This document shows, in pieces, positions 618 through 27,301 of a stretch of DNA of 27,301 nucleotides (its first letter is position 1; each line of letters starts with the position of its first letter). The stretch covers positions 1 through 27,301 of IMG/VR virus record IMGVR_UViG_3300046804_002892; one strand, given 5' to 3'. Made by a program: the position numbers and the translations under genes. Under the pieces are notes generated by a model. That model worked only from the letters and a program-made list of their open reading frames with translations. It did no database searches and was not told the DNA's origin. This DNA comes from a virus.

Positions 618-1086
618 AAAATTAAAATTTCGATTAGAATTATGGGCAACCTATTGGGATCGAGCTCCTCGAGCAAAGATATTAATTAACGATCATAATC
701 ATTACAATAAAGAAATTAAAGGTACAGAAAAAGAACCCACTGTTATAGAATTTGAGCAAGAGTTAAAAGAAGGTGAAAATTACTCTTTAATTATAAATCG
801 ATCAGGTAAAGATATTCGACAAACTGTGATTGAAAATGGACAGATTGTTAAAGATCAATTATTACATATTAAATCTATAGAAATAGATGAAATAGATATT
901 GGTGCTCTAGTTTATAATGGTCTTTATACTCCAAAATATCCAGAACCATGGGCATCAGAACAAGCGGCAGCAGGCAATAAATTGCCAGAATCATTTAAAA
1001 ATGTTACAGCTATAGGGCATAACGGACGTTGGGAATTGGGTTTTACATCACCCTTTTACATGTGGCTTTTAGAGAACCTGTATTAG
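607..1086 (+). CDS. Hypothetical beta-sandwich-like protein, 159 aa
   Basis: Not assigned to a family. The first 110 residues look like a beta sandwich: APRAKILINDHNHYNKEI, a stretch of hydrophobic/charged strands, then GENYSLIINRSGKD. The C-terminal half has aromatic and proline-rich patches (LYTPKYPEPWA, WELGFTSPFYMWLLENLY). The N-terminal pattern A-P-x-A-K/R-I-x-I/V-x-D recurs in the AT-rich gene at 5004, so the two may share a carbohydrate-binding-module-like fold; this is inference from a short stretch. The start overlaps the upstream gene by 11 nt. A late-promoter element lies directly after the stop. Confidence 0.6.
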   Translation: MSTEKLKFRLELWATYWDRAPRAKILINDHNHYNKEIKGTEKEPTVIEFEQELKEGENYSLIINRSGKDIRQTVIENGQIVKDQLLHIKSIEIDEIDIGALVYNGLYTPKYPEPWASEQAAAGNKLPESFKNVTAIGHNGRWELGFTSPFYMWLLENLY

Positions 1087-1093
1087 CTAAATA
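1086..1093 (+). promoter_or_regulatory. Candidate T4-type late promoter (GCTAAATA) before the gene at 1100
   Basis: GCTAAATA matches six of eight bases of the T4 late consensus TATAAATA and is followed by C, as in TATAAATAC. In T4 the octamer spans about -13 to -6, which puts +1 at about 1099, one base before the ATG at 1100. No Shine-Dalgarno is available between +1 and ATG. Weakest of the set because the first two bases differ. Confidence 0.45.
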
Positions 1094-1099
1094 CAGGGC

Positions 1100-1507
1100 A
1101 TGAGCAACTATCAAGATATCAAAGTATTGCTTACTAGATTAGACAGCATAGCAGCCGAGCCTGCTTATGAGCCACTACCAGAAGCAGACGAAATTACAGT
1201 GGAAGATAATCAAGATTTCCACGAAATGTTTGGGTATTTGGGATTTCCAGAGAATGAATTATGGGAAGCAGAATATAGAGGTAGAAAAGTAGCATTAGGC
1301 AAACCAATGAAAGGTGATGTTAAAAAATTTAAAGTTTATGTAAAAGATCCCAAAACTGGCAATGTAAAAAAAGTTAATTTTGGTGATCCTAACATGAGAA
1401 TTAAAAAATACATTCCAGCTAGACGCAGAAGTTTTAGAGCAAGACACAACTGTGCTAATCCAGGCCCAAGAACCAAAGCAAGATATTGGAGTTGCAGAAA
1501 ATGGTAA
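1100..1507 (+). CDS. Conserved marine-myovirus hypothetical with basic Cys/Trp C-terminus, 135 aa
   Basis: The N-terminal half is acidic; the C-terminal half is strongly basic. After VNFGDPNMRIKK comes a dense module of about 28 residues containing SFRARHNC, PGPRTKARY and WSCRKW. I recall this module from conserved unknowns of T4-like marine phages, often near structural genes, but I know of no proven function. The two Cys with His and many Arg/Lys could bind metal or packaged DNA (inference). It is preceded by a candidate late promoter 6 nt before the ATG, which argues for late expression. The last 7 bases overlap the next gene. Confidence 0.75.
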   Translation: MSNYQDIKVLLTRLDSIAAEPAYEPLPEADEITVEDNQDFHEMFGYLGFPENELWEAEYRGRKVALGKPMKGDVKKFKVYVKDPKTGNVKKVNFGDPNMRIKKYIPARRRSFRARHNCANPGPRTKARYWSCRKW

Positions 1508-1854
1508 GAGCTCATCAATTTATTTCAGAATCCAGTATTGACGCTGTGAATGAATTAGATCTTTATATTAATAACAATGAAGATTTATATAGAAAAAGAT
1601 TCATGCCATTGGTTCACAATTTAAAAACAGATGTAAATTCTAATAGATACAATCATGAGAATGCTACCAAACAATGGAATCTTTTAGTCAACGATGCTGC
1701 CCGAGAATATGTTAAAGAATTTGGCAAACCTCATGAAGATGTCAAAGACATGTTCCCTCAAGAAACTAGAGCTAAGGTAGCACAGGTACTTGCTGACAGA
1801 GAACTTGAAAATATAAAAAAAGGTGAGTACGATGTGGCTAAAGGAACTATTTGA
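1501..1854 (+). CDS. Hypothetical alpha-helical phage protein, 117 aa
   Basis: Not recognised. ATG at 1501 is chosen over an in-frame TTG at 1486 because it is the first ATG and overlaps the previous stop by only 7 nt. The protein is predicted all-helical: ESSIDAVNELDLYINNNEDLYRKRF, then NHENATKQWNLLVNDAAREYV in the middle and charged helices at the end. The central part resembles small conserved helical proteins of T4-like marine phages that I recall only as unknowns. No signal peptide or membrane segment. Its end overlaps the next gene by 23 nt. Confidence 0.65.
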   Translation: MVRAHQFISESSIDAVNELDLYINNNEDLYRKRFMPLVHNLKTDVNSNRYNHENATKQWNLLVNDAAREYVKEFGKPHEDVKDMFPQETRAKVAQVLADRELENIKKGEYDVAKGTI

Positions 1855-3004
1855 AGCTAAGAACGATTCTATCGTTTTTGCTTTTGGCAGATACAATCCT
1901 CCAACACTAGGACACGAAGCTGTATTTCAGACAGTGATCAATACTGCTAAGACGAAAGGTGCTGATCATACTATATTCATTAGCTCAACACAAAAACCCA
2001 AAACAGATCCTCTGTCATTCCAATACAAATTAGATTATCTTCAAAAGACTTATACAGGTGTAAATTTTAATGGAGATGATACTATAAAAACTATTGTGCA
2101 ATTATTACAAGAATTAATGAATCGTGGTTATAGAAATATTACCATGGTAGCAGGTTCAGATCGAGTGAATGAATTTCGAACATTTTTAAATCAATATAAT
2201 AAGAAACCTGATAAGAAAGGCAACATACCTTTTGAGTTTGACAGTATAGATGTTGTGAGTTCAGGTGAGAGGGATCCAGATCAGGAAGGTGTTAGTGGTA
2301 TCAGTGCCAGTGGTGCTCGAGCAGCCGCAGCAGCAGGAGATCAGAAAAGTTTTATGAGCATGGTAAATCCTAAATTTGGTGCTGAATTATATACAGAATT
2401 AAGAAAGTCTATGGGTGTCAAAGAGCAGGTTGCAACAAACACGGAAAAGTTGTATAATGAAGCAATGCCTGAACAAACAAATGGTAAACCTGTGGTTTAC
2501 CTAGATATGGACGGAGTGTTGGCTGACTTCTTTGGAGGGGTAGAAAAACTCTACGGAGTGAGTCATTGGAAACAGTTAGCATCTGATAAGACCAAAGATT
2601 TAAGACAAGATGTGATCGATAGAATCACAGGCACTAATTTTTTTGAAACACTACCTAAATTTCCCACAGCAGATCCATTAATTGGCATGATTAAAAAATT
2701 TACCGGTGAAAGATTTTCTATATTAACATCTCCTCTCAGAGGAGATCATGATAACTCTGCTAAATGGAAAAAGGTCTGGATCAATCAAAATATAGAGCAA
2801 CCAGATGAGACCATAGTGACGGGCAGAAAAGAAAAATATGCTACAACTAACGGTACATCTAATATATTAATTGATGATCGTCCTATCAACATACAGAAAT
2901 GGCAAGATAAGGGCGGATATGGAATTCTATATCAAGCCAACAAGGATTCACTAAGTAAGGTAGAACAGGGTCTAAAAAACTACGGAGAAAAAAATGGTAA
3001 TTGA
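1832..3004 (+). CDS. Bifunctional nucleotidyltransferase (HxGH-type) fused to HAD-family 5'-nucleotidase-like domain, 390 aa
   Basis: Residues about 13-195 are a cytidylyltransferase/NMN-adenylyltransferase-like domain: FAFGRYNPPTLGHEA carries the nucleotide-binding T/H-x-G-H loop (residues 25-28), MVAGSDRV follows, and GISASGAR stands where this superfamily has its ISxSxxR motif. Residues about 218-385 are a HAD domain of the deoxyribonucleotidase type: VYLDMDGVLADFF with D225 and D227, FSILTSP as motif II, and LIDDRPINI as the metal-binding motif. Substrate is not deducible; NAD or nucleotide metabolism is likely. ATG 1832 is preferred over GTG 1823 because AGGTGAG precedes it. The N-terminus MWLKELFEAKND has an L-x-E/A site like T4 prohead-protease targets, so the enzyme might be packaged. 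Confidence 0.8.
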   Translation: MWLKELFEAKNDSIVFAFGRYNPPTLGHEAVFQTVINTAKTKGADHTIFISSTQKPKTDPLSFQYKLDYLQKTYTGVNFNGDDTIKTIVQLLQELMNRGYRNITMVAGSDRVNEFRTFLNQYNKKPDKKGNIPFEFDSIDVVSSGERDPDQEGVSGISASGARAAAAAGDQKSFMSMVNPKFGAELYTELRKSMGVKEQVATNTEKLYNEAMPEQTNGKPVVYLDMDGVLADFFGGVEKLYGVSHWKQLASDKTKDLRQDVIDRITGTNFFETLPKFPTADPLIGMIKKFTGERFSILTSPLRGDHDNSAKWKKVWINQNIEQPDETIVTGRKEKYATTNGTSNILIDDRPINIQKWQDKGGYGILYQANKDSLSKVEQGLKNYGEKNGN

Positions 3005-3212
3005 TATTAGAAGAGATTACAGATCAGACAAAGAGATTAAAATGGCACAGGATGAAAAAGATCGTATGATGCAAGAATTCTTAGCCAAAGGTGGCAAAGT
3101 TGAAAAATTAAAACCAGGCATTGCTAAAGGAGCATCCAGTCTAAATTATGGTGGCAAGTTACAGTACACCGACGCAGAAATCAAAGCACAAGCAGAAGAA
3201 AACCGGGAATAA
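2994..3212 (+). CDS. Small conserved phage hypothetical, 72 aa
   Basis: Not assigned. ATG 2994 has a GGAGA element six bases upstream and overlaps the preceding gene by 11 nt. The middle holds a helix and the motif EFLAKGGKVEKLKPGIAKGA. I recall a F-L-x-K-G-G-K-V/I-x-K-x-x-P motif in many small cyanophage and other T4-like phage proteins of unknown role. The protein is charged and soluble. An alternative start at the internal Met (MAQDEKDR, residue 17) would give a 56-residue protein and cannot be excluded. Confidence 0.6.
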   Translation: MVIDIRRDYRSDKEIKMAQDEKDRMMQEFLAKGGKVEKLKPGIAKGASSLNYGGKLQYTDAEIKAQAEENRE

Positions 3213-3215
3213 TCT

Positions 3216-3836
3216 ATGTCATTCACTTTTACGAAAGAACAGTTGCAATCTATAATTGGTAATAATCCTAATCTAGATGGTTGGTATGAAGCACTATCAA
3301 ACGTACTACCTGAATATGAAATAAACACTCCTCAGAGAGTGGCTGCTTTTATAGCACAATGCACTCATGAGAGCGGCGGATTCAAGAGATTAAAAGAGAA
3401 TTTAAACTATAAATGGGAGAGTTTAAGAAAAGTATTCCCCAAATATTTCCCCACAGATGAGTTAGCACAAGAATATGCACACAAACAAGAGCAGATTGCT
3501 AACCGAGTTTACGGTGGAAGAATGGGCAATGGTGATGAGTCATCTGGAGATGGATTCCGATATTGTGGCAGAGGATTGATACAATTAACAGGCAAGAACA
3601 ATTACACAAAATTTGCTGAGAGCATTGGCATGGCAGTGGACGAAGTGCCTGCTCTACTAGAAACTTTTGAAGGTGCAGTAAAATCTGCCTGCTGGTTTTG
3701 GAAGACTAATAATTTAAATCAGTTCGCTGATTCTGGAGATATTCTAACCATGACCAAACGCATCAACGGTGGCACTATCGGTTTGGAAGATCGTATCAAA
3801 CATTATAATCACGCATTGGAAGTATTTTCCTCTTAA
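3216..3836 (+). CDS. GH19 chitinase-like endolysin, 206 aa
   Basis: Glycoside hydrolase family 19 fold, which phages use as an endolysin to cut peptidoglycan glycan strands at the end of infection. Catalytic Glu is E52 in the stretch QCTHESGGF; the substrate-cleft loop GDGFRYCGRGLIQLTGK (about residues 111-127) and NGGTIGLEDR near the C-terminus are characteristic. Length is normal for a single-domain GH19 lysin, with no cell-wall-binding domain. No signal peptide or signal-anchor is present, so a holin is expected; none is recognised nearby. It sits between small late-region genes, as expected for lysis. Confidence 0.9.
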   Translation: MSFTFTKEQLQSIIGNNPNLDGWYEALSNVLPEYEINTPQRVAAFIAQCTHESGGFKRLKENLNYKWESLRKVFPKYFPTDELAQEYAHKQEQIANRVYGGRMGNGDESSGDGFRYCGRGLIQLTGKNNYTKFAESIGMAVDEVPALLETFEGAVKSACWFWKTNNLNQFADSGDILTMTKRINGGTIGLEDRIKHYNHALEVFSS

Positions 3837-3841
3837 TACAC

Positions 3842-4057
3842 ATGGACCTGGAACATCTAAAAAGATTAGCAGGTATTAACAACACAGCAGAACACAATCC
3901 TAGTGTGGGAGAAAATGTTAGTTACTCTGCCACAGAAAAAGCTGAATACCAAAGAAAATACAATATACAACCAGGCACGCCAGAATGGTTTAAACTATGG
4001 TTCAGTCGACCGTATCTTACAGGAGAAAATCCTATGCCTCGTAAATCTAATAAATAG
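3842..4057 (+). CDS. Small conserved phage hypothetical, 71 aa
   Basis: Not assigned. The N-terminus MDLEHLKRLAGIN resembles the leader-like helix on several marine-phage small proteins. The C-terminal half has IQPGTPEWFKLWFSRPYL, which I recall from cyanophage unknowns with an almost identical P-G-T-x-E-W-F-x-L-W-F-S-R-P-x-L-T-G-E motif. No membrane segment or cofactor motif. It follows the endolysin by 5 nt. The same stretch holds an overlapping frame (3903-4088), which I treat as a shadow. Confidence 0.65.
   Translation: MDLEHLKRLAGINNTAEHNPSVGENVSYSATEKAEYQRKYNIQPGTPEWFKLWFSRPYLTGENPMPRKSNK
4049..4056 (+). promoter_or_regulatory. Candidate T4-type late promoter (AATAAATA) before the dps-like gene
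   Basis: AATAAATA matches seven of eight bases of TATAAATA. By T4 geometry +1 would be near 4062, leaving about 7 nt before the ATG at 4069 with no Shine-Dalgarno. It overlaps the stop codon of the upstream gene. Confidence 0.5.
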
Positions 4058-4068
4058 AAACATATTAT

Positions 4069-4509
4069 ATGACTCCAGAAATTGGTAAAATTGCAAAACA
4101 GGCTTTCGCAGATACTTTCCTATTCTATCTTCAAGCACACTATTATCATTGGAATGTGGAAGGTAGAAATTTCTCACAGGATCATGAGTTACTGGGCAAA
4201 ATATATGAAGAAGTATTTGGTTCTATTGATACATTTGCAGAAGAATTAAGATCCATGGGTACCTATGCTCCAGGAGTGTTTGATCGATTACGAGAATTAT
4301 CCACTATACAACAATCAGATGAAATACCTGCAGCTGAAAAAATGATTCAAAATTTAATAGACAGTAATGAAAAAGTATTAAAAAGTCTTGGCGCTGCTTT
4401 TGATGTTTTAGAAGCAAATCATCTACATGGATTTGGCAATTTTGTTGCTGAAAGAATTGACGCCCATAGCAAACATGCTTGGATGTTGAAAAGCACTCTT
4501 AAAAAATGA
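4069..4509 (+). CDS. Dps-like ferritin-family protein, 146 aa
   Basis: Four-helix-bundle Dps family, which assembles as a dodecamer, oxidises Fe(II) with peroxide and often coats DNA. Ferroxidase ligands are in the right register: H27 in HYYHWNVEG, H39 twelve residues later, D54 and E58 (D-x3-E in SIDTFAEEL). These match H31, H43, D58 and E62 of Listeria Dps; the D47 equivalent is Gly43. There is no lysine-rich N-terminal tail of the E. coli type. The length is usual for the family. It is preceded by a late-promoter-like element and overlaps the next, basic, gene by 4 nt (ATGA), so it is probably made late; packaging or protection of phage DNA is an inference. Confidence 0.85.
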   Translation: MTPEIGKIAKQAFADTFLFYLQAHYYHWNVEGRNFSQDHELLGKIYEEVFGSIDTFAEELRSMGTYAPGVFDRLRELSTIQQSDEIPAAEKMIQNLIDSNEKVLKSLGAAFDVLEANHLHGFGNFVAERIDAHSKHAWMLKSTLKK

Positions 4510-4970
4510 AGATACGTGAAATAATACACAGAGAAGATGCTGCTGGTGTAGGCATAATCACCAAACAAAATACCACAGCGGATGTTAAGCCTGGTGAGAC
4601 TGGTAGAAATTTAAAAAAATTACATTTAACGAATTCTGTTAACGAGGTTGCACCAACAGTGAATTATGGTATTGGAGCAAATCCAGGCAAGCTGGTACCT
4701 GTGGGTAAGGATGGTCGTGTTCCTCATGCTAAGTTGCATGTCAATGTTAATAAAAGTACAGCTAAAAAATTAGGTATCCCTCATGAAATGAAAGAAAACT
4801 TTGCTGACGGAAAAGGTCCAGGACGTCCAGGAGATTCCAAAAGAGCTGGTATACCCAAAGGTGCCACTATAGCACAATTAAAGAAAATACGTAGCAGCAA
4901 GACTGCTTCTCCACGCAAGAAACAGCTGGCACATTGGCAAATTAACATGCGCCAAGGCAAGAAAAAATAA
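4506..4970 (+). CDS. Basic protein with capsid-targeting-like N-terminus, 154 aa
   Basis: Not assigned to a named family. The N-terminus MKIREIIHREDA is one of several near-identical leaders in this window and ends in I-x-x-E, a pattern cut by the T4 prohead protease. The rest is Gly/Lys rich with a low-complexity middle and a very basic tail containing GATIAQLKKI and QLAHWQINMRQGKKK. I recall related basic aromatic tails on cyanophage unknowns. High basicity and lack of enzymatic motifs suggest an internal head protein that contacts DNA; this is inference. It overlaps the dps-like gene by 4 nt. Confidence 0.65.
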   Translation: MKIREIIHREDAAGVGIITKQNTTADVKPGETGRNLKKLHLTNSVNEVAPTVNYGIGANPGKLVPVGKDGRVPHAKLHVNVNKSTAKKLGIPHEMKENFADGKGPGRPGDSKRAGIPKGATIAQLKKIRSSKTASPRKKQLAHWQINMRQGKKK

Positions 4971-5003
4971 TTTCCTCAAATACAAAAACAAATAACTAAA
5001 GAT

Positions 5004-5873
5004 ATGAAGCAGGTCATATTACTAGGTTTCTATTGTCAAATTTATAAGAAAGCACCAATTGCTAGAATCTATGTAGGTGATATTATGATTGATGAAATTG
5101 AAATACCAGAATTTTATACAGAAAAACATTTTAAAAAAAATAAATTATGGGTTGAGACAGATAAAAAATTTAAAGAAAGAGGAATGACCGGTATTGGTTG
5201 GTTAGGTAATGAAATGGAATTACATCCTGCATCACATGAATATATACATAAATTAGATACATATTCGTGGTTAAAAGAATTAAATCCATCTATGTTTTCA
5301 TTCTATAATATTTGTTCAAAAGATATAAAAAATAATACTAAAAAAAATATTAAACATCCTAAAATATTTGTTTATGTAATTGATGATGAAATTTTAAAAA
5401 AATCAGAAGGAAAAATAACTATTAAAATTCAAAATTCAGATTCTAATTATGTTAATGGTTTTATAACAAAATCAACATTATTACATTTAAGTACTTTTTA
5501 TATCATTCCTTATACGTTATTCAAAAATCCTATCGAAACAACACAAAGATATTTAAATATATGGTCTAAAAAAGCAAATTCATATAGTTTAAAACAAATA
5601 ATAAATTCTTATAAAAATTTAAGATTACACTATCCTATTAATTTAAAAGATTCTTTTAATCTTATACAAAACAATGAAAAAAAGAATAATGATTGTGTTG
5701 TTGGAGGAGATTGTAATTACGAAATAGAATTAAAAAAAAAGTATAATATATGGTGGACAAAAAATATAAAAAATATTGGATTTTTTTGGATAAATTATAT
5801 TTTTATAAAAGATTTTATAGTGAATCTTTCTAATAAATACAAACAGAATGAGAATCAACGAAATACTGATTAA
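5004..5873 (+). CDS. Orphan AT-rich hypothetical protein, 289 aa
   Basis: Not recognised. Base composition is far more AT-rich than the neighbours: the 60 bases 5341-5400 contain 8 G or C. Asn, Lys and Ile dominate the protein accordingly. The first 25 residues (YKKAPIARIYVGDIMIDEIEI) resemble the opening of the gene at 607. The middle (ITIKIQNSDSNYVNGFITKSTLL) looks like a beta-sandwich binding domain, and the C-terminal 120 residues are helical and lysine-rich. The end overlaps the next gene by 26 nt. Likely a recently acquired accessory gene. No late-promoter match as good as those of its neighbours, though CTCAAATAC occurs at 4975-4983. Confidence 0.6.
   Translation: MKQVILLGFYCQIYKKAPIARIYVGDIMIDEIEIPEFYTEKHFKKNKLWVETDKKFKERGMTGIGWLGNEMELHPASHEYIHKLDTYSWLKELNPSMFSFYNICSKDIKNNTKKNIKHPKIFVYVIDDEILKKSEGKITIKIQNSDSNYVNGFITKSTLLHLSTFYIIPYTLFKNPIETTQRYLNIWSKKANSYSLKQIINSYKNLRLHYPINLKDSFNLIQNNEKKNNDCVVGGDCNYEIELKKKYNIWWTKNIKNIGFFWINYIFIKDFIVNLSNKYKQNENQRNTD
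5832..5839 (+). promoter_or_regulatory. Candidate T4-type late promoter (AATAAATA) before the gene at 5848
   Basis: TAATAAATAC at 5831-5840 matches the T4 late octamer at seven of eight positions plus the following C. It lies inside the 3' end of the AT-rich gene. Predicted +1 at about 5845 leaves three bases before the ATG at 5848. Confidence 0.6.
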
Positions 5874-6111
5874 GGAAACAGCATCAGCTGGAGCAACATC
5901 TTCGGGTAGTATTGCCAGTGTAGTGTCGCCACATATTGCTATAGGACTAGATAGATTTAAGAAGAGTTACACAGGTTCACCAGGACGCTCTGGCACACGA
6001 GCACCACGAGTGCCCACAGCATACACACCAAAAAATGCAGATGGCACAGCACGAGGCGCACACGAATTAACCGGCACCAGTCTATTTGGTGGACCATTAG
6101 TGAGAAGATAA
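5848..6111 (+). CDS. Small Gly/Ser/Pro-rich protein with capsid-targeting-like N-terminus, 87 aa
   Basis: Not assigned. The leader MRINEILIKETASAG ends in L-I-K-E before T, fitting a T4-type prohead-protease site after Glu10. What would remain is low-complexity and basic (SYTGSPGRSGTRAPRVP, LTGTSLFGGPLVRR), as for an unstructured internal head peptide. The start lies 8 nt after a strong late-promoter match and within the previous gene. The stop TAA shares its last base with the next ATG (TAATG), so the next gene is probably translated by coupling. Confidence 0.6.
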   Translation: MRINEILIKETASAGATSSGSIASVVSPHIAIGLDRFKKSYTGSPGRSGTRAPRVPTAYTPKNADGTARGAHELTGTSLFGGPLVRR

Positions 6112-6278
6112 TGACAGCAAAAGAAAAACCATACTGCGTTAATTGCGGAGGTTCTAGCCATTGTCGCAAAACTCTTCGAAGAAAAGAGAGTGAAACCATT
6201 AACAATAAAATAGTGCGTGAGTGGACTATAGAAGTGTGCCGTAATTGCCTGTGTGATCGATGTGAGAAGAAAAAATGA
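6111..6278 (+). CDS. Cys-rich zinc-ribbon-like small protein, 55 aa
   Basis: A short frame read directly: MTAKEKPYCVNCGG at the start, a third Cys at position 18, a basic middle, then VCRNCLCDRCEKKK at the end. C9-x2-C12 plus C43-x2-C46-x-C48-x2-C51 give two Cys knuckles, typical of a zinc ribbon or treble-clef finger that could bind DNA, RNA or another protein. It is coupled on both sides: TAATG with the upstream gene and ATGA with the downstream gene, which supports it as real despite its length. No closer homologue recognised. Confidence 0.65.
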   Translation: MTAKEKPYCVNCGGSSHCRKTLRRKESETINNKIVREWTIEVCRNCLCDRCEKKK

Positions 6279-6415
6279 AAATTAATGAAATTATAAGAAA
6301 AGTTGCAGGTGGATACAGATTATATTCGCACAAAGGCCGGAATTTAGGCACATATCCTACACGAGCAGGCGCTAAAAAAAGAGAACGTCAAGTACAGTAT
6401 TTTAAGCATAAATAA
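6275..6415 (+). CDS. Very small basic phage protein with shared leader, 46 aa
   Basis: Short frame read directly. The leader MKINEIIRKVAGG matches the shared M-K/R-I-x-E-I/L pattern. The body contains YRLYSHKGRNLGTYPTRAG and KKRERQVQYFKHK, a pattern (L-Y-S-x-K-G-x-x-L-G-T-x-x-T/S-x-x-A-x-K-R-E-R-Q-V-x-x-F-K) I recall as a common C-terminal mini-domain of T4-like marine-phage proteins. The ATG overlaps the upstream TGA. Its 3' end contains CATAAATA, the late-promoter candidate for the gene at 6420. Confidence 0.65.
   Translation: MKINEIIRKVAGGYRLYSHKGRNLGTYPTRAGAKKRERQVQYFKHK
6407..6414 (+). promoter_or_regulatory. Candidate T4-type late promoter (CATAAATA) before the gene at 6420
   Basis: CATAAATA matches seven of eight bases of TATAAATA. 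T4 geometry puts +1 at 6420, exactly the A of the ATG, which predicts a fully leaderless transcript. It overlaps the stop of the 46-aa gene. Confidence 0.55.
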
Positions 6416-6419
6416 TGGT

Positions 6420-8015
6420 ATGCGTATCAACGAATTAAACGTACCAGTACAACCAGACACATACGAAGCTAGTATGTTCCTTACACAGGCTATACGAGCA
6501 GGCAAATACGCAATAAAAATTCACAATTTATTGAGCAACGATCAAGAGATGGAATCTTGGGTGGCAAAAAAGATTGATCTAGCATCAGGTTATATCAATG
6601 GTGTAGCAGAATATCTTTCCACTGAAAAAGTTTACAAAGAAGATGCAGGTGAAGGACATATGGCTAAATCACAACTGTATTCTATCGCAAAATCAGCACT
6701 GGCAATCACTACAATGGTTCAACCAGGTGATGATATTGAAGGTTGGGTACAAACCAAAATGAATCGAGCAGTGGACATGCTAGATGCAGTGTATCACTAT
6801 GAAGATTATCAAAGATTAAATCCCTACAGAGAAGAGATAGGTGACCTACATCAGAAACATGCAGAAATAGTAAAAAAGAATATCGATGAGATTCTAGCCA
6901 CAGAAACACCAGTGGATGATATAGAGACCAAACCTGGCATGCTAAACATATTGAAGAAAAGAGTACATCAATTTGAAAAAGAGCGTGCCCAAGAGAATAG
7001 AAAGACCAATGAAGCAGGTTCTAGGCTGCCTTCCAGCATGGCCAAAACTAAAGCCAAATTGGATAGAATGACTCCAGATGAGATACGAGCATTCTTTAAG
7101 AACAGAGAAGATTTTGCCAAACAACATGCTGGTGGAGTTATTCGTCCAGGTTTTTCAGCTAAAGAATTAGCACAGAGTCAAGAATTTAGATATGGCAGAG
7201 AGTTTGCTAAAAGAAATCCTTATTCTCGACATTTTGAAAGCACACAAAAGCCTTACGTGAGCCAAGCTGTGGACGGCAAATGGAATGTGCTGGACAAAAA
7301 TGGAAAGACAGTGTTCTCATCTGGTGATTACCGTGTGGCACAAGATTACTTCAAAAAACATTATGATATGTTGAGAGAAACAGAATTAGACGAAGGTTTA
7401 AAAGATTGGTTACAAAGAGTTGCTGCTGCTGGCATTATCGTAGGCAGTGTGGCAGGTATTGGATCAATTAACAATGCCATGGATAACAGCGTTCCGGTGA
7501 TACAGGCCATGAACAAGGCTCTAGATGTTGCCAATCAAAAAGGTGATAAACAATTAGTTCAATCGATCAAACAGGATATTGAAACAGCAAAAATAAGTCT
7601 AGATTCAGGACAGAATTTAAACACAGTAAAAAATATGCAGGACAGATATGCTAAATTTATGCCAACAGAATACAAAAAAAATGAGAGTTTCAAAGACAGA
7701 ATCGTGAGCAAAATTGTAGCACCTATTAAAGATTATAATAAAAATAAAGAATCCATGCTGCCAAAGAGCGCATTTGCAGGCAGCGATAAACACAAGTTAG
7801 GACCAGCAGCACATTTAACCGGCAAAATGAAAAGACCAGCACGAGCAGGCGATTTAGTGGGTGAAGAAAAACAAAAAGGACTGGACGGCAAAGCATGCTG
7901 GAAAGGTTATAGACGCATGGGCACCAAGATGAAGGGTGGCAAAAGAGTAGATAACTGCGTTAAAGTCAATTACGAGTCTAAATTAGCTGAAAAACTTGCA
8001 AATAAGCTCAAATAA
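6420..8015 (+). CDS. Candidate internal virion protein, 531 aa
   Basis: No named family. The leader MRINELNVPVQP resembles the shared N-terminus. Residues about 20-200 are helical. A central segment (FAKQHAGGVIRPGFSAKELAQ, then YVSQAVDGKWNVLDKNGKTVF) is followed by a possible prohead-protease site, ELDE/GL. Next comes a hydrophobic stretch at about residues 334-352 (VAAAGIIVGSVAGIGSI) that could insert in a membrane. The C-terminus has a basic Cys/Trp module with KACWKGYRRMGTKMKGGK and DNCVKV, which I recall on many marine-phage proteins. Late promoter, size and processing-like sites suggest a packaged protein, perhaps ejected with DNA. The role is inference. Confidence 0.65.
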   Translation: MRINELNVPVQPDTYEASMFLTQAIRAGKYAIKIHNLLSNDQEMESWVAKKIDLASGYINGVAEYLSTEKVYKEDAGEGHMAKSQLYSIAKSALAITTMVQPGDDIEGWVQTKMNRAVDMLDAVYHYEDYQRLNPYREEIGDLHQKHAEIVKKNIDEILATETPVDDIETKPGMLNILKKRVHQFEKERAQENRKTNEAGSRLPSSMAKTKAKLDRMTPDEIRAFFKNREDFAKQHAGGVIRPGFSAKELAQSQEFRYGREFAKRNPYSRHFESTQKPYVSQAVDGKWNVLDKNGKTVFSSGDYRVAQDYFKKHYDMLRETELDEGLKDWLQRVAAAGIIVGSVAGIGSINNAMDNSVPVIQAMNKALDVANQKGDKQLVQSIKQDIETAKISLDSGQNLNTVKNMQDRYAKFMPTEYKKNESFKDRIVSKIVAPIKDYNKNKESMLPKSAFAGSDKHKLGPAAHLTGKMKRPARAGDLVGEEKQKGLDGKACWKGYRRMGTKMKGGKRVDNCVKVNYESKLAEKLANKLK

Positions 8016-8018
8016 TAA

Positions 8019-8035
8019 TATATTATTATAATATA
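8019..8035. repeat. AT-only inverted repeat, 8-bp arms around one base
   Basis: TATATTAT at 8019-8026 and its reverse complement ATAATATA at 8028-8035 flank a single T. It lies in the 40-nt gap between two genes and ends six bases before the late-promoter octamer. In AT-rich DNA such palindromes arise easily; an upstream regulatory site is only possible. There is no G-C stem or T-tract, so I do not call it a terminator. Confidence 0.3.
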
Positions 8036-8041
8036 ACATTT

Positions 8042-8049
8042 AATAAATA
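8042..8049 (+). promoter_or_regulatory. Candidate T4-type late promoter (AATAAATA) before the gene at 8056
   Basis: TAATAAATAC at 8041-8050 is identical to the element before the gene at 5848. Predicted +1 at about 8055, one base before the ATG. It sits in the only clear intergenic gap of this block. Confidence 0.65.
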
Positions 8050-8055
8050 CATCAT

Positions 8056-9069
8056 ATGGCACGCAAATTTAAAGACGATGATTTCGCAAATCTAATAAAA
8101 AGACTCAATGAATTGAGCAATCTTTCTCCAGAACAAGAGAGACAAGAATTATTAGAAGCAGCCAAAAAAGAACCAAGAGTGCTGGATGATAGACAGATAT
8201 CATTGGCTGATATTGCAAAACTAGCTGGTATTAAAGAATTCAAAGAACCTACAAAAATTTCGCCTAAAGCAGAAAAATTAATAGAATCAATCACTAGTGA
8301 GAAGAGCGATATCACAAAGGCCATAGAAGAATCAGACAAAAAAACAAATAAAACAGAAATTAAAGAAGCAAAGAAAAAAGAAAATAGATTAGAAAAAATT
8401 GCTGAATTAGAATCTAAGTTAGCAGAATTAAAAGCAGAACAAAAAGAAGAACAAACTTATGACGCAAAAACATTCAGAGAAGTGGTACAAAAAGACATTC
8501 AAGAATATATCCAATCATGCGATGAGTCAGCATTGGTTGAGTTATACAACAGCATCTCAGACAATGAAGCAATCTACAACGAAGAATCATCAAACATTCT
8601 TGTTAAAACTGAAGAAACTAAAGAAATTATCGCTGACGCAGAAAAATTAGAACAAGAAGTTATTGCAGAAAAAGAAAAAGCAACTAAAGAAAAAGAAGAA
8701 GTGGTTCAAGAGAAACAACCAGAAGCAGAAACAGTTGCTGAAGAACCCAAAGAAGAAACAGCGGAACCCAAAGAAGAGACCACAGATGAAGCAGCAGGAT
8801 TCCAAGGACAGACAGAAGCAAGACAATTTGATGTAAGACTAGCAGGAGATTTTGACAGAGATCGTCCAACATCAGATACAGAAGCTATGGCTGTTAAAAC
8901 TATTTTAAAAAATGCTGGAATACAAGCAGAAGTTCAACCTAGCGAAGCAAACTTTTCATCAGTTTCTATAAACACAATGTCTCCACCTGAAGCAGTTATG
9001 AGTGCTTTGGGAGATATGGTTGATGAAAACTTAGAATACAAAGACGAGCTTTCCGAAAATAAAAAATAA
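8056..9069 (+). CDS. Acidic coiled-coil protein, 337 aa
   Basis: Not assigned. The first 80 residues are helical with LSPEQERQELLEAAKKEPRV and the motif ISLADIAKLAGIKE. Residues about 85-135 and 190-255 are long Glu/Lys coiled coils, ending in a Glu-Pro-rich linker with repeats such as PKEETAEPKEETTDE. The last 80 residues look like a small alpha/beta domain (AMAVKTILKNAGIQAEVQP, SVSINTMSPPEAVMSALGDM). The composition recalls phage scaffolding or prohead-core proteins, but I see no specific homology. A strong late-promoter match 6 nt before the ATG indicates late expression. Confidence 0.65.
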   Translation: MARKFKDDDFANLIKRLNELSNLSPEQERQELLEAAKKEPRVLDDRQISLADIAKLAGIKEFKEPTKISPKAEKLIESITSEKSDITKAIEESDKKTNKTEIKEAKKKENRLEKIAELESKLAELKAEQKEEQTYDAKTFREVVQKDIQEYIQSCDESALVELYNSISDNEAIYNEESSNILVKTEETKEIIADAEKLEQEVIAEKEKATKEKEEVVQEKQPEAETVAEEPKEETAEPKEETTDEAAGFQGQTEARQFDVRLAGDFDRDRPTSDTEAMAVKTILKNAGIQAEVQPSEANFSSVSINTMSPPEAVMSALGDMVDENLEYKDELSENKK

Positions 9070-9083
9070 TATCGAGATAGGTG

Positions 9084-9722
9084 ATGAAGTTAAAACTCAC
9101 CCATAATCAATTTAATCCCAATTCATATTTCCATAATCCTATAGATCAAAATTTTGTCCCCACAATAGAACAAACAGAATTGTTTGATCAGAACGGTTAT
9201 GATCTTACACCATTAGAACGATTGTATGCAGAGGCTAATGGACAAGCGGGTCGCTGGCATCGTCCCAATCACTATGCTCTAAAATATGATTGGTTTGTGG
9301 ATGAGCAGAATTCAGTCTCTGGTGCACATATCAATCATGCTCTACTGTTCGAGAGGAAAGGATATGCTGGAATAGCTTTAACACAATTAGAAGGTTGGGC
9401 TCAGCACAATCATTTGATTTATAAAATAATAAAAATGCGTCCTAAATGGGGCATGGATATCAGTGTGGATTATGTGGACACCAATGGCAATGTGTTTGAA
9501 CTACTGCATTGGGAATATGACGGATTCGATTACCAAGAAATTGCTGATAAGAAAATGCATATTGAAAAATTTTTATTGTCTATAGATTGGGATCGTGCTG
9601 TTGTAGAGATGATTCGTAGGAAATCTGAGTGGCATCATCTAGGTTTTTTTGAACAGAGTGCTTGGAAAACTGAATTTTTTGGCATAGAACGAGAACGTTT
9701 TAAGATGGTGCTTTGGCAATAA
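9084..9722 (+). CDS. Hypothetical phage protein, 212 aa
   Basis: Not recognised. ATG 9084 is preferred over GTG 9081 because the purine stretch GATAGGTG lies just upstream. The sequence is rich in aromatic residues and His/Trp (GRWHRPNHYALKYDWF, GWAQHNHLIYKIIKMRPKWGMDISVDYVD, FELLHWEYDGFDY), which looks like a globular alpha/beta protein of unknown function. No signal peptide, membrane helix or nucleotide-binding loop. It lies in the late block, and its stop codon overlaps the late-promoter element of the next gene. Confidence 0.65.
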   Translation: MKLKLTHNQFNPNSYFHNPIDQNFVPTIEQTELFDQNGYDLTPLERLYAEANGQAGRWHRPNHYALKYDWFVDEQNSVSGAHINHALLFERKGYAGIALTQLEGWAQHNHLIYKIIKMRPKWGMDISVDYVDTNGNVFELLHWEYDGFDYQEIADKKMHIEKFLLSIDWDRAVVEMIRRKSEWHHLGFFEQSAWKTEFFGIERERFKMVLWQ

Positions 9723-9725
9723 ATA
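9718..9725 (+). promoter_or_regulatory. Candidate T4-type late promoter (AATAAATA) before the gene at 9733
   Basis: CAATAAATAC at 9717-9726 repeats the element found before the genes at 5848 and 8056. Predicted +1 about 9731, two bases before the ATG at 9733; no Shine-Dalgarno. Confidence 0.6.
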
Positions 9726-9732
9726 CAAGCAT

Positions 9733-10320
9733 ATGAGTCAGATACCTATTTTTTCATACAAACAATATTTAGACGATATGTTACGTCTCAAAGACCACGG
9801 TACCGTGGATGCTGATGCACAGGTAGAAAGACCAATCAGTGCAGGTTCTCGAGGATTAAAAAGAATTAAAGATTTTGTGAAAGATCCTGTACACATGATG
9901 GGAGAATCAGAGGATTCAAGGCCATCTCCAGCAAATCCTAATCCTAAAATAGAATCAAATCTATTAGATAAACCTACACCCACTATTCAAGATATTGCAA
10001 AAAAATTTAATAAATCTACAAAGTATATTTTAGATCAATTAAAGGCGGGCATAAGAGTAGAATCTGAGCATACCAATCAATTTGAAGTAGCTATGGAAAT
10101 TGCATTAGACCATCTAAATGAAAGACCAGACTACTATGAAGTGCTAAAGTCAGCAGAGAAGAAAAAAATTACCAAAAATGAAGTAATAAAGGCTGTTTTA
10201 GAAGGCGTCACTTATTCCAAAACATCAGGCGAGTTGATCTTACCAGAAGCAATTCAAGGTAATTTAAAAACTTGGTTTGAATCTCACTGGAATAATATTA
10301 CTAAATCTTCGAAAAAGTAA
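9733..10320 (+). CDS. DUF5661-like phage protein, 195 aa
   Basis: The central part, about residues 80-140, carries IQDIAKKFNKS, then LKAGIRVESEHTNQFEVAMEIALDHLNERPDYYEVL. The pattern G-I-x-V-E-x-E-H-T-x(4-6)-A-x-x-I-A-x-D-H-L-x-E-x-P-x-Y-Y is one I recall as a small conserved domain (DUF5661-like, name from memory) in phage and bacterial proteins of unknown role. The N-terminus MSQIPIFSYKQYLDDM could be another head-targeting leader. The C-terminus is basic. Expressed from a candidate late promoter. It ends just before the early promoter of dsbA, so it closes the late block. Confidence 0.7.
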   Translation: MSQIPIFSYKQYLDDMLRLKDHGTVDADAQVERPISAGSRGLKRIKDFVKDPVHMMGESEDSRPSPANPNPKIESNLLDKPTPTIQDIAKKFNKSTKYILDQLKAGIRVESEHTNQFEVAMEIALDHLNERPDYYEVLKSAEKKKITKNEVIKAVLEGVTYSKTSGELILPEAIQGNLKTWFESHWNNITKSSKK

Positions 10321-10377: not shown

Positions 10378-10635
10378 ATGTCAGGAAGAAATTTCAACGA
10401 AGCAGAAAAAACCAAACTAATACAACTGATCAAAGAAGGATCACAAGTGTTAGGAGAGATAGATGATCTTAAAGCTGGTCTCAAAGACACAGTAAAAGCA
10501 CTATCAGAAGAATTAGAACTTAAACCAGCATTGATTAACAAAGCTATTTCTATCGCTCACAAGGACAATTACAAAGCTGTGGCTGATGATATGGATATGT
10601 TAGACAGCATATTGACTGCAGCAGGCAAAATCTAG
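10378..10635 (+). CDS. dsbA: DsbA-like dsDNA-binding late-transcription regulator, 85 aa
   Basis: Resembles T4 DsbA (89 aa), a double-stranded DNA-binding protein that modulates late promoters; not the disulfide oxidoreductase of the same name. Visible pattern: NFNEAEKTKLIQLIKEGSQV, then EIDDLKAGLKDTVKAL, then ALINKAISIAHKDNY. The layout (short helix, a helix with D-L-K-x-G-L-x-D-T-V/I-K-x-L, then K-A-I-x-I-A-H-K) is what I recall in cyanophage DsbA annotations. It has the best ribosome-binding site in the window (AAAGGAG) and its own sigma70-like promoter. Its stop overlaps the next GTG by one base. Confidence 0.8.
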   Translation: MSGRNFNEAEKTKLIQLIKEGSQVLGEIDDLKAGLKDTVKALSEELELKPALINKAISIAHKDNYKAVADDMDMLDSILTAAGKI

Positions 10636-10916
10636 TGTATGGTATTATAAGACAATTTTGGGTCAATAGTTATCGAACAGATCGTGTAGCATTTTACTAT
10701 GAGCTGATCTCTTTGATATTCACTATATTTGGTTCTTTAGTGCTGACATTCACTAGTCCACACCCTCAAATGAATTTGGTGTTTCCTTTTTATCTATTAG
10801 GATCCTCTACCATGGCCTATTCTGCTTATCGTAGAAGAAACCTATGGATAACTATGTTGGCTAGTTGGTTTACAATAATGAATTGTATCGGAAATTATCT
10901 AGTATTTTTTAAATGA
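10635..10916 (+). CDS. Small membrane protein, 93 aa
   Basis: The frame starts with GTG at 10635, overlapping the dsbA stop (TAGTG), and ends overlapping the polymerase ATG (ATGA), so it is translationally coupled on both sides. Three hydrophobic segments are visible at roughly residues 24-42 (LISLIFTIFGSLVLTF), 47-63 (MNLVFPFYLLGSSTMAY) and 70-91 (LWITMLASWFTIMNCIGNYLVF). The N-terminus has FWVNSYRTDRVAFYYE, a motif I recall in a cyanophage membrane protein of unknown function. A role in attaching replication to the membrane is possible only by context. Confidence 0.7.
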   Translation: MYGIIRQFWVNSYRTDRVAFYYELISLIFTIFGSLVLTFTSPHPQMNLVFPFYLLGSSTMAYSAYRRRNLWITMLASWFTIMNCIGNYLVFFK

Positions 10917-13579
10917 GTTACATAGACGCTTATTATCGCAGAGATGACGACAAGGTGTTGGTAGTAGAACGTGATACCAACGGTCAAAGAAGATTTGTGG
11001 ATTATGATGCTCGATATGTATTCTATTATCCAGATCCTCGAGGCAAACATAGAAGCATACATGGAGAAACTCTACAGAAAGTTTCTTGTAGCACATTCAA
11101 AGAATTTATAAAAGAACAAAAAATTAGAAGCAATAAAAAATTGTTCGAACAAGATATTAATCCTGTGTTTCGTTGTCTTGAAGAAAATTATTTAGGTAAA
11201 GATGCTCCTAAACTTAATGTGGTGTTCTTTGATATTGAAGTGGACTTTGATCCACAACGTGGATATTCTACTACAGATGATCCATTTATGCCCATAACAG
11301 CAATCACTTGTTATCTTAACTGGACTGACCAGCTCGTAACTTTTGCTATACCTCCTAAAGGATTGAGTATGGCAGATGCCAAACTACAAGTGGAAAGATT
11401 CAGCAATGTGATGTTGTTTGAAAAAGAAAAAGACATGCTAGATGCTTTCTTAACACTAGTGGATGAAGGAGATGTTATCAGCGGTTGGAACTCGGAAGGA
11501 TATGATATACCCTATGTTGTGGGAAGAATACAGAAAGTATTGAGTTCAGATGATACTCGAAGATTATGTTTTTGGGGAGAAAAACCTAAAAAAAGAACAT
11601 TTGAGAAATATGGCAGAGAGCAAATTAGTTATGATTTAATTGGTCGAGTACATTTAGATTTATTAGAATTGTACAGGAAATATACCTACGAAGAACGTCA
11701 CAGTTATCGTTTAGATGCTATAGGAGAATGGGAATTGGATGAAAAGAAAACTGTGTATGAAGGATCACTGGATCAATTGTACAACAATGATTTTGGAATG
11801 TTTATAGAATACAACCGACAAGACTGTAATCTACTGGCAAAATTAGAAAAGAAATTAAAATTTATTGAACTAGCAAATGAGATTGCACATCAGAACACTG
11901 TGTTATTACAAACCACAATGGGAGCAGTGGCAGTGACAGAACAAGCTATTATCAATGAAGCACATCGTCGAGGCATGATAGTGCCGGGTCGAGCGAAAAG
12001 AGATGAATCAGCACCTGTGGAATCAGCAGCAGGAGCGTATGTGGCATATCCTAAAAAAGGCATACATGACTGGATAGGATCTGTAGACATAAACTCACTG
12101 TATCCATCTGTGATTCGAGCTCTAAACATGGGTCCAGAAACTATTGTAGGACAGATACGTCCAGTGATTACATCAGCAGAAATAAACAGAGCGAAACATC
12201 AAGGTAAATCATTTGCCACAGCATGGGAAGGACAGTTTGGTTGTTGGGAATATCAAGCAGTGATGAACAAGGACAAAGGCACAGAATTAATCATTGATTG
12301 GGAAGATGGTACCAGTGTGAGAATGAGTGCAGCACAACTGTATGATCTTGTGTTTGATGGTAACAGACAGTGGATGATCTCTGCCAATGGTACCATATTC
12401 ACATATGAATTTGAAGGTGTTATTCCAGGATTGTTAAAAAGATGGTATGCTGAAAGAAAAGACATGCAAAAAAGAATGAGTGAGTGTGGAGACAATGCTA
12501 TTGAAAGAGAGTTTTGGGATAAAAGACAATTGGTTAAAAAAATTAATCTAAACTCACTGTATGGTGCAATTCTAAATCCAGGTTGTCGTTTCTTTGACAT
12601 GCGTATAGGACAATCAGTAACACTAACAGGCAGATGTATCACACAACATATGGCTGCTAAGACCAATGAAATTATTGCAGGCAAATATGATCACGTGGGA
12701 GAGAGTGTAATATATGGTGATACAGACTCTGTGTATTTTTCTGCTTATACTACATTAAAAAAAGAAATAGACTCAAAACAAATCCCATGGGGCAAAGAAA
12801 ACATTATTGCTCTTTATGATAAAATTGCAGAAGAAGTAAATGAAACATTCTCAGCATTCATGACTCGAGCATTCCATTGTCCTAAAACTCGAGGTGATGT
12901 GATACGAGCAGGTCGAGAATTGGTAGCATCTAAAGGATTGTTTATAACTAAAAAAAGATATGCATTGTTATATTTTGACAAAGAAGGTGAGCGTGTGGAC
13001 ACAGCAGGCAAAGAAGGCAAAGTAAAAGCCATGGGATTGGATCTCAAACGCTCTGATACTCCGGTATTCGTGCAAGATTTTTTGAGTGATATTTTATACC
13101 TAGTATTAATAGGTAAAACAGAGGCAGAAGTGTTAGAAAAAATTAAACAATTCCGCGGAGAATTTAAATCTAGACCAGGTTGGGAAAAAGGTTCTCCCAA
13201 ACGTGCTAATAATATTACAGAATATCATGAAGAAGAAAAGAAAAAAGGCAAAACCAATATGCCAGGACATGTAAGAGCTAGTATCAATTGGAATAGATGC
13301 AGAGAGATGTATAGTGACAAGTACAGTATGCCTATATTAGATGGTGCTAAAGTAATTGTTTGTAAATTAAAGAATAATCCTCTAGGTTATACTTCTATAG
13401 CATATCCTGTAGATGAGCAGCGATTACCCGAATGGTTTAAAGAATTACCATTTGATTCTGATGGTATGGAAGAGAGTGTGCTAGATGGCAAGATTGAGAA
13501 CTTAATTGGTGTGTTAGAATGGGACGTAAGATCCACAGAAAGTTCTAATACGTTTAATAAACTATTTGAAATGGCTTAA
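10913..13579 (+). CDS. 43: Family B DNA polymerase, T4 gp43-like, 888 aa
   Basis: Replicative phage DNA polymerase with 3'-5' proofreading. Exo I FFDIEVDF (D107, E109), Exo II SGWNSEGYDIP (D198), Exo III YNRQDCNLL. Polymerase motif A DINSLYPS (D392), motif B around KKINLNSLYGAI, motif C IYGDTDSVYF (D603, D605). All catalytic residues are present and the length is close to T4 gp43 (898 aa), so it is intact with no intein. It probably works with the clamp encoded 0.9 kb downstream. Overlaps the membrane protein gene by 4 nt, so it shares the dsbA promoter. The C-terminal residues (TFNKLFEMA) could be the clamp-binding tail, as in T4. Confidence 0.97.
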   Translation: MSYIDAYYRRDDDKVLVVERDTNGQRRFVDYDARYVFYYPDPRGKHRSIHGETLQKVSCSTFKEFIKEQKIRSNKKLFEQDINPVFRCLEENYLGKDAPKLNVVFFDIEVDFDPQRGYSTTDDPFMPITAITCYLNWTDQLVTFAIPPKGLSMADAKLQVERFSNVMLFEKEKDMLDAFLTLVDEGDVISGWNSEGYDIPYVVGRIQKVLSSDDTRRLCFWGEKPKKRTFEKYGREQISYDLIGRVHLDLLELYRKYTYEERHSYRLDAIGEWELDEKKTVYEGSLDQLYNNDFGMFIEYNRQDCNLLAKLEKKLKFIELANEIAHQNTVLLQTTMGAVAVTEQAIINEAHRRGMIVPGRAKRDESAPVESAAGAYVAYPKKGIHDWIGSVDINSLYPSVIRALNMGPETIVGQIRPVITSAEINRAKHQGKSFATAWEGQFGCWEYQAVMNKDKGTELIIDWEDGTSVRMSAAQLYDLVFDGNRQWMISANGTIFTYEFEGVIPGLLKRWYAERKDMQKRMSECGDNAIEREFWDKRQLVKKINLNSLYGAILNPGCRFFDMRIGQSVTLTGRCITQHMAAKTNEIIAGKYDHVGESVIYGDTDSVYFSAYTTLKKEIDSKQIPWGKENIIALYDKIAEEVNETFSAFMTRAFHCPKTRGDVIRAGRELVASKGLFITKKRYALLYFDKEGERVDTAGKEGKVKAMGLDLKRSDTPVFVQDFLSDILYLVLIGKTEAEVLEKIKQFRGEFKSRPGWEKGSPKRANNITEYHEEEKKKGKTNMPGHVRASINWNRCREMYSDKYSMPILDGAKVIVCKLKNNPLGYTSIAYPVDEQRLPEWFKELPFDSDGMEESVLDGKIENLIGVLEWDVRSTESSNTFNKLFEMA

Positions 13580-14467: not shown

Positions 14468-15205
14468 ATGATAGACATATTAAGAGACATAGTTAAACAC
14501 ACATATGGTTTAGGCTTCCTAGATCTAGTTAAAATCACAGGCACTGCAGATGAAACTGCTATTGATTCTATGGCAGAAGATCGTTCAGTGATTCTACAAG
14601 GCACATTCAAACAACCACAAGCAGGATTAGTAGGCACATTTGGAATGCCACAATTGAACAAATTAGATATTCATTTAAAATGTCCAGAATACAAAGACAA
14701 AGCCAACATTACAGTTATCAAAGGCACAAGAAATGGTGCTGAAATTCCTGTAGGCATACACTTTGAGAATGAAAAAGGCGATTTCAAAAATGATTATCGT
14801 TTTATGAATGCTGAAATCATCAATGAGAAATTAAAAACAATTAAATTCAAAGGTGTTAAATGGGACGTAGAGATTGAGCCCACAGTGGCAGGCGTGCAGA
14901 GATTCAACTTCCAATCTGTAGCAAACACTGAACATAATACATTTGTTGTAAGAACCGACAACGGCAACCTAGTATTCACGTTTGGTGATCAAGCATCACA
15001 TGGTGGAGAATTTACTTTTGCCACAGGTGTTAAAAGCACTCTTAACAAAGGTTGGAGTTGGCCAGTAGCACAGGTTCTACAAATATTAAAATTGTCTGAT
15101 TCTGCCAAGGTTACTCTGCATTTCTCCAATGAAGGTGCAATGCAAGTCACAGTAGATTCAGGAGTGGGTGTATATCGTTATATCATACCAGCACAGGCAC
15201 AGTAA
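14468..15205 (+). CDS. 45: Sliding clamp, T4 gp45-like, 245 aa
   Basis: Resembles the phage PCNA-fold processivity clamp, a trimer that encircles DNA, tethers polymerase and in T4 also activates late promoters. Recognised from overall pattern: an N-terminal LRDIVKHTYGLGFLDLVKI helix/strand, VAGVQRFNFQSVANTEH, and the C-terminal PCNA-like ending with KVTLHFSNEGAMQVTVDSGVGVY followed by YRYIIPAQ. Length is near T4 gp45 (228 aa). Its own sigma70-like promoter lies upstream and its stop overlaps the dpdA start by one base (TAATG). The presence of clamp and TAAATA elements together fits T4-type late transcription. Confidence 0.85.
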   Translation: MIDILRDIVKHTYGLGFLDLVKITGTADETAIDSMAEDRSVILQGTFKQPQAGLVGTFGMPQLNKLDIHLKCPEYKDKANITVIKGTRNGAEIPVGIHFENEKGDFKNDYRFMNAEIINEKLKTIKFKGVKWDVEIEPTVAGVQRFNFQSVANTEHNTFVVRTDNGNLVFTFGDQASHGGEFTFATGVKSTLNKGWSWPVAQVLQILKLSDSAKVTLHFSNEGAMQVTVDSGVGVYRYIIPAQAQ

Positions 15206-23422: not shown

Positions 23423-23430
23423 CGGCCAGT

Positions 23431-23459
23431 TTGACTTCTAATCTAAATAACCGTATAAT
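23431..23459 (+). promoter_or_regulatory. Sigma70-like promoter with predicted leaderless start at 23466
   Basis: TTGACT (23431-23436), 17-nt spacer, TATAAT (23454-23459), then six bases to the ATG at 23466. A standard +1 falls on or next to the ATG. The 43-nt gap holds no Shine-Dalgarno. The promoter would serve the cupin - unknown - queE group. Confidence 0.75.
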
Positions 23460-23465
23460 ATACAT

Positions 23466-25139: not shown

Positions 25140-25164
25140 TTGGAAAACAATTGATTTTTTCCAA
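25140..25164. repeat. 8-bp inverted repeat enclosing a -35 element (possible operator)
   Basis: TTGGAAAA (25140-25147) and TTTTCCAA (25157-25164) are perfect reverse complements separated by 9 nt. The TTGATT -35 of the next promoter lies across the loop and right arm. It could be a repressor operator or a weak hairpin; no T-tract follows, so it is a poor terminator. Confidence 0.5.
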
Positions 25165-25179
25165 GAAGTGTATTAAAAT
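25151..25179 (+). promoter_or_regulatory. Sigma70-like promoter upstream of the gene at 25186
   Basis: TTGATT (25151-25156), 17-nt spacer, TAAAAT (25174-25179), followed by AAGGAT and the ATG at 25186. A standard +1 falls at about 25186, so the transcript may be leaderless even though an AAGGA stretch is present in the DNA. Confidence 0.65.
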
Positions 25180-27221: not shown

Positions 27222-27229
27222 GGTAAATA
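27222..27229 (+). promoter_or_regulatory. Candidate T4-type late promoter (GGTAAATA) before the gene at 27242
   Basis: GGTAAATAC matches six of eight bases of the late octamer and is followed by C. Predicted +1 near 27235 leaves about seven bases before the ATG at 27242. An ATG at 27232 opens only a 17-codon frame. Confidence 0.4.
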
Positions 27230-27241
27230 CTATGATAGATT

Positions 27242-27301
27242 ATGTCAAGACCAAAGCCAACAGTGCTGTTAACAATCAGCAATAAAGAGACTTACAAGCA
27301 A
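27242..27301 (+). CDS. Partial CDS: start of a conserved phage hypothetical (3' end outside window)
   Basis: Twenty codons are visible before the window ends, beginning MSRPKPTVLLTISNK. I recall an M-A/S-R-P-K-P-T-V-L/I-L start on a conserved cyanophage protein of unknown function. The ATG follows a weak late-promoter-like element. The frame stays open to the last base. Confidence 0.5.
   Translation, partial: MSRPKPTVLLTISNKETYKQ

Follow-up and report, generated by a model that had tools for sequence, protein, structure and literature searches.

In a clade of uncultured T4-like phages, elements that would be T4-type late promoters of the gp55 class lie directly beside start codons, an arrangement which very probably gives rise to leaderless or near-leaderless late mRNAs. 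We propose that RNA polymerase would start either exactly at the A of the AUG or 1-3 nt ahead of it, and that ribosomes probably load on these late mRNAs at the 5'-terminal AUG, by 70S or IF2-assisted binding, and do not depend on a Shine-Dalgarno (SD) sequence. The octamer core and gp55 are kept as in T4, as would be the +1 position, with a different location of the ATG; many sigma70-like promoters of the clade are placed likewise, whereas SD leaders are retained by the genes for the major capsid, sheath and tube proteins.

The window (the whole stretch of DNA analysed, 27,301 nt) is a 27.3-kb viral contig of 35% G+C whose source phage is T4-like, and is probably a fragment of a longer phage genome. 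It carries genes for a gp43 DNA polymerase (10913-13579), adjoined by a probable gp45-type clamp (14468..15205, + strand; identified from this position and the annotation of the same-place Phosso gene), an endolysin (start 3216) and a GTP cyclohydrolase (start 20858). The nearest annotated gp43 relatives are found in the alphaproteobacterial jumbo phages Phosso (49.6% identity) and Atu_ph07 (45.5%), and IMG/VR holds many closer ones (79-99%). The window gp43 shares 94-95% amino-acid identity with four of them (L022, L029, L023 and L027) at a nucleotide identity of about 80%, and its GC3 is 0.26 against 0.56-0.63 in these four, amounting to a strong shift in synonymous G+C among closely related sequences. 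Gene starts were taken from our own simple caller, except in Pelagibacter phage HTVC008M, for which the deposited annotation was used; the clade contigs are fragments.

Putative late promoter octamers in the window

Read directly from the sequence, the six TAAATA elements listed in a preliminary description of the window are all present, all on the + strand, and none of the six sites has an SD. They conform to the T4-type octamer TATAAATA (8 bp, first base often A), with AATAAATA at four of the six sites and GCTAAATA and CATAAATA at the remaining two. Under T4 geometry, the leaders of the genes starting at 1100, 4069, 5848, 6420, 8056 and 9733 would be 1, 7, 3, 0, 1 and 2 nt long, as first proposed.

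The shortest predicted leader (0 nt) belongs to the gene at 6420..8015 (531 aa, function unknown, with a phrog_4359 match at the C-terminus). Its octamer (6407..6414) ends 5 nt before the ATG, the site reads CATAAATA-ATGGT-ATG and the predicted +1 is the A of the ATG; spacing is 5-6 nt in 6 of the 9 family members. The gene at 1100..1507 (135 aa, phrog_7595, function unknown) follows an octamer at 1086..1093 by 6 nt (GCTAAATA-CAGGGC-ATG), a spacing found in most orthologs, and its late promoter is predicted to be near-leaderless (0-1 nt). Three other sites, in which AATAAATA is followed by C, are identical over AATAAATAC, as had been noticed. The first (5832..5839) reads AATAAATA-CAAACAGA-ATG and stands 8 nt before a small phrog_17311 gene (5848..6111, 87 aa; ortholog spacings 5-11 nt, with a single one of 25), its C-A step placing the predicted +1 at 5845 (leader 3 nt). 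The second (8042..8049) reads AATAAATA-CATCAT-ATG and precedes by 6 nt (predicted leader 0-2 nt) a gene without PHROG or Pfam match (8056..9069, 337 aa), for whose protein the phages collection gave no relative. The third (9718..9725), which overlaps the stop of the preceding gene, reads AATAAATA-CAAGCAT-ATG and lies 7 nt upstream of a DUF5661 gene (PF18905; 9733..10320, 195 aa), the C-A step putting +1 at 9731 (predicted leader 2 nt). The DUF5661 protein also matches the N-terminal region of initiation factor IF2 (PF04760), but weakly and below threshold.

The weakest of the six sites is that of a ferritin/Dps-like gene (PF00210; 4069..4509, 146 aa), where the octamer (4049..4056) lies 12 nt upstream (AATAAATA-GAAACATATTAT-ATG; predicted leader 7 nt) and most orthologs have no element or have it elsewhere. 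A seventh octamer, GGTAAATA (27222..27229, + strand), was missed at first; its TAAATA (27224-27229) ends 12 nt before the ATG at 27242 of a gene running off the contig, for a predicted leader of 7 nt. This 12-nt spacing is kept in four relatives and is an exception to the 5-8 nt rule described below. As a contrast case, the DsbA-like gene (PF11126) at 10378..10635 (+ strand) has a leader and an SD (AAAGGAG).

Placement of TAAATA across the clade

We compared motif-to-start distances with shuffled sequence, as the preliminary description had suggested, for the window together with 16 related contigs and outgroups; the result was a sharp peak at 5-8 nt. In the window, TAAATA ends 5-8 nt upstream of 5 of the 37 called ATG starts, against 0.24 +/- 0.47 in 200 dinucleotide shuffles (largest shuffle count 3). 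Twelve related contigs contain 245 TAAATA, with 101 ORF-ATGs at 3-15 nt (0.41 per motif), against a mean of 0.10 per motif for anagrams; the counts at spacings 5, 6, 7 and 8 are 20, 31, 11 and 13. Similarly, four further contigs have 22, 18, 20 and 14 starts at 5-8 nt versus 1.7, 0.8, 1.3 and 0.3 when shuffled. The excess is far over shuffles in the window, G006, G009, G010, G013, G014, G015 and G018, and close placement affects 135 clade genes (47 of 325 families). Among all hexamers upstream of clade starts, TAAATA is the most strongly positioned, with SD hexamers just behind.

The placement is also conserved at individual genes. All 44 orthologs of the 8056 gene with a readable start have a spacing of 5-8 nt, and distant ones often carry the full TATAAATA / TATAAATAC. 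Across 27 distinct upstream sequences, ATAAATA is invariant, while the preceding nine bases are 37-78% conserved.

AT-rich DNA, in which stop codons are frequent near ATGs, might produce TAAATA at such positions by chance, as the window has 35% G+C and stop-start junctions are common. This explanation is extremely improbable: neither the anagram nor the dinucleotide-shuffle controls reproduce the peak, and they refute a reading by chance or composition. Moreover, the peak persists in G006 despite its 45% G+C (12 close starts vs 0.5 shuffled) and is absent from T4 and Atu_ph07, which are equally AT-rich. TAAATA is in fact under-represented in the window (26 vs 44.1 expected), which corrects the earlier remark that the motif is not rare, although the intragenic TAAATAC (17267) on which it was based is real. 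Thus, the close placement of TAAATA is not due to chance.

Shine-Dalgarno motifs and start codons

Room for an SD in the leader is a usual, although not defining, trait of T4-type late promoters, and it is lacking at spacings of 5-8 nt. T4 itself leaves this room, as the preliminary description pointed out, its elements sitting 18-36 nt upstream. In the clade, SD 4-mers precede 4% of the genes with an element 3-13 nt away, which is the level of shuffled sequence (5%); absence of an SD is, with an AUG start, a trait of leaderless mRNAs. Other clade genes have SD 4-mers in 32-41% of cases (vs 10-17% shuffled), indicating that SD-led initiation exists in the same genomes. ATG is the start codon of 135 of 136 genes in the close class and of 965 of 992 elsewhere, a weak difference in the expected direction. 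A pyrimidine stands before the ATG in 82% of the close class, compared with 41% of starts inside operons or standing free (p = 5e-11, an optimistic value because the sequences are related); a family-weighted count agrees at spacing 5 (24.2 of 25 families).

Could the close starts be mis-called, the true ones lying downstream, behind an SD inside the coding sequence? A minority of these genes (15/135) do have a downstream in-frame start with an SD, but this equals the rate of other genes (89/963, p = 0.53), and the deposited HTVC008M annotation has the same starts. Upstream starts are impossible too at spacing 6, since the TAA of TAAATA is then an in-frame stop. We therefore regard mis-called starts as very improbable.

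Position of the initiator

The T4 late octamer is numbered from -13 (its first base) to -6 in a review (PMC2988020). A pyrimidine-purine step at bases 5/6 after TAAATA is found in 50-60% of the late promoters of T4, Atu_ph07 and Syn9; it was not seen at these bases in Phosso late promoters (21%). In the clade, a pyrimidine directly precedes the ATG in 39 of 41 five-nt spacers, and the step occurs at bases 5/6 in 13 of 18 distinct seven-nt spacers (4.6 in shuffled spacers) and in all 14 distinct eight-nt spacers (3.8 in shuffled ones). In the last two classes the step is fixed relative to the promoter and not to the ATG, and hence most likely marks the transcription start. Judged by this step, +1 would fall on the sixth base after the octamer for spacers of 5, 7 and 8 nt, with predicted leaders of 0, 2 and 3 nt, respectively. 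At spacing 6, the commonest, the initiator is mixed and the predicted leader is 0-2 nt.

As the initiator stands at the fifth and sixth bases after TAAATA, we infer that clade late promoters have their +1 either at the AUG itself or 1-3 nt ahead of it. The preliminary description had inferred +1 from the octamer; the promoter-anchored dinucleotide now gives this position a second basis. Sequence evidence as a whole argues strongly for leaderless transcription.

Real promoters do not imply that leaderless ends matter much, if most protein were made from polycistronic read-through RNA, by translation coupled to the upstream gene. Clade genes are tightly packed, and the upstream stop lies within 20 nt or overlaps at 76 of 133 sites, so that coupled translation of read-through RNA could contribute. 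On the other hand, at 32 of the 133 sites the 50 nt upstream are free of same-strand genes, and four sites are directly behind strong intrinsic terminators (G013 56530 and 60575; G014 111534 and 129399); an enrichment of terminators ahead of leaderless promoters is suggestive but falls short of significance (p = 0.07). In addition, coupling would need no conserved register between +1 and ATG, and the register is conserved. Coupling is thus an unlikely main source of protein, and initiation at the 5'-terminal AUG remains our preferred reading.

Sigma70-like promoters

Close placement to the ATG extends beyond late promoters. In the clade, 57 sigma70-like promoters lie 5-8 nt before the ATG, 28 of these at a distance of 6 nt, and 67 others form a second hump at 19-34 nt. 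At 6 nt, a -10 hexamer at -12 to -7 would place +1 on the A of the ATG. Two examples are found on the + strand of the window: TTGACT-17-TATAAT (23427..23460) ends 6 nt before the ATG at 23466 of a cupin gene, for which +1 is expected on or beside the ATG, and the -10 element of TTGATT-17-TAAAAT (25151..25179) ends 6 nt before the ATG at 25186. Sigma70-like promoters at 5-8 nt number 0 in T4, 0 in Syn9, 1 in Atu_ph07 and 2 in Phosso.

A host habit as the cause of this placement is unsupported by a crude test, in which 400 kb of one Pelagibacteraceae (SAR11) single-cell genome yielded 4 sigma70-like promoters at 5-8 nt and 12 at 19-34 nt; SAR11 may not be the host of the clade.

Genes with and without predicted leaders

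In G013 and G014 the close-placed set includes the terminase large subunit, a head-tail adaptor, several structural proteins and a gp25-like wedge protein whose gene is preceded by an AGGA as well; SD leaders are kept there by the genes for major capsid, tail sheath and tail tube. In HTVC008M, the close-placed genes include those of the tail tube cap, baseplate wedges, tape measure, head closure, end protector, head-tail adaptor and tail completion proteins, and again the major head, sheath and tube genes keep their SDs. Leaderless translation of late genes, suggested at the outset to be widespread, would not extend to all of them, as the major capsid, sheath and tube genes are SD-led.

The SD-led virion proteins are the high-copy ones in T4. 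Leader class would then be tied to virion copy number, as far as a few genes can indicate. We tentatively suggest, as a possibility somewhat short of an even chance, a two-tier translation in which SD-led late mRNAs serve high-copy virion proteins and leaderless ones the low-copy terminase, neck and baseplate proteins, the promoter-ATG distance helping to set virion stoichiometry; this system would have at least two origins, one in the present clade and one in Pelagibacter phages.

gp55 and the evolution of placement

Use of gp55 and late timing would be expected for promoters of this type. G013 and G014 encode long-type gp55 homologs that share 41-44% identity with the Atu_ph07 and Phosso proteins; a search of the first 12, shorter clade contigs found none. 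On the gp55 tree, HTVC008M stands apart from G013/G014, and at least two changes are forced. The loci sister to G013/G014 have 19 leadered sites versus 1 leaderless, in counts that include near copies, with few sites per locus and long branches present. Among the relatives of HTVC008M, sites divide by placement class 6 against 14 in Mosig, which has the same host, and 2 against 21 in Melnitz (Methylophilales host). Together, the split on the tree and the Mosig and Melnitz counts indicate that placement changes while promoter type stays. A third lineage on the tree (L205-L224) mostly has one leaderless-spaced site per locus, which is too few to classify.

Phosso, Atu_ph07, HTVC008M, Mosig and Melnitz also encode the ribosomal protein bS21; a search of 12 clade contigs, all of them fragments, gave none. 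Whether initiation is SD-led or leaderless may depend in some way on this protein.

Comparison with known systems

As in T4 (gp55/gp33/gp45; PMC2988020), clade late promoters have a TAAATA core, need no -35 box and would have +1 at the sixth base after the octamer, and a gp55 homolog and a probable clamp are encoded in the clade. In T4, however, the element and the ATG are 18-36 nt apart and enclose an SD; the clade spacing is 5-8 nt, without SD. TAAATA lies 18-36 nt upstream of 16-56 genes each in T4, Syn9, Atu_ph07 and Phosso, mostly with an SD, and at 5-8 nt of none in T4, Syn9 and Phosso and of one in Atu_ph07 (3.6 expected). The contrast holds even for Atu_ph07 (Agrobacterium) and Phosso (Sinorhizobium), which share the hexamer and the long-type gp55 with the clade but have 56 and 38 genes at 18-36 nt and 1 and 0 at 5-8 nt. 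A parallel is found in HTVC008M, whose TAAATA stands exactly 5 nt before tail, neck and baseplate ATGs, without SD; it differs from the clade in that about half of its late sites are leadered and its sigma70-like promoters form no clear peak.

Cellular leaderless mRNAs, such as those of Sinorhizobium meliloti (171 transcription starts on the AUG; PMC3616915), and lambda cI resemble the clade mRNAs in their inferred +1 at the AUG, absence of SD and almost exclusive use of ATG, whereas the clade employs phage-type late and sigma70-like promoters for dozens of gene families. In jumbo phage phiKZ, too, late transcription starts at a short motif of fixed position, namely TATG with the G as start (cited in PMC5312081), but its polymerase is a phage multisubunit RNAP and its motif is different; its relative AR9 has long leaders (26-491 nt). 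Our search of the open-access literature turned up no account of leaderless late transcripts of the T4 type.

In pelagimyophages, searches for late promoters on the cyanophage model were unsuccessful (PMC7029224), which the ATG-adjoining placement may help to explain, and annotators gain a start-site rule from it. Both HTVC008M and its host being in culture, the placement is testable now. Textbook T4 late mRNAs carry SD leaders; this clade, if our reading is true, would represent a large leaderless gene set in one phage group, making testable both the competition of leaderless mRNAs during infection and the possibility that leader choice sets virion protein ratios.
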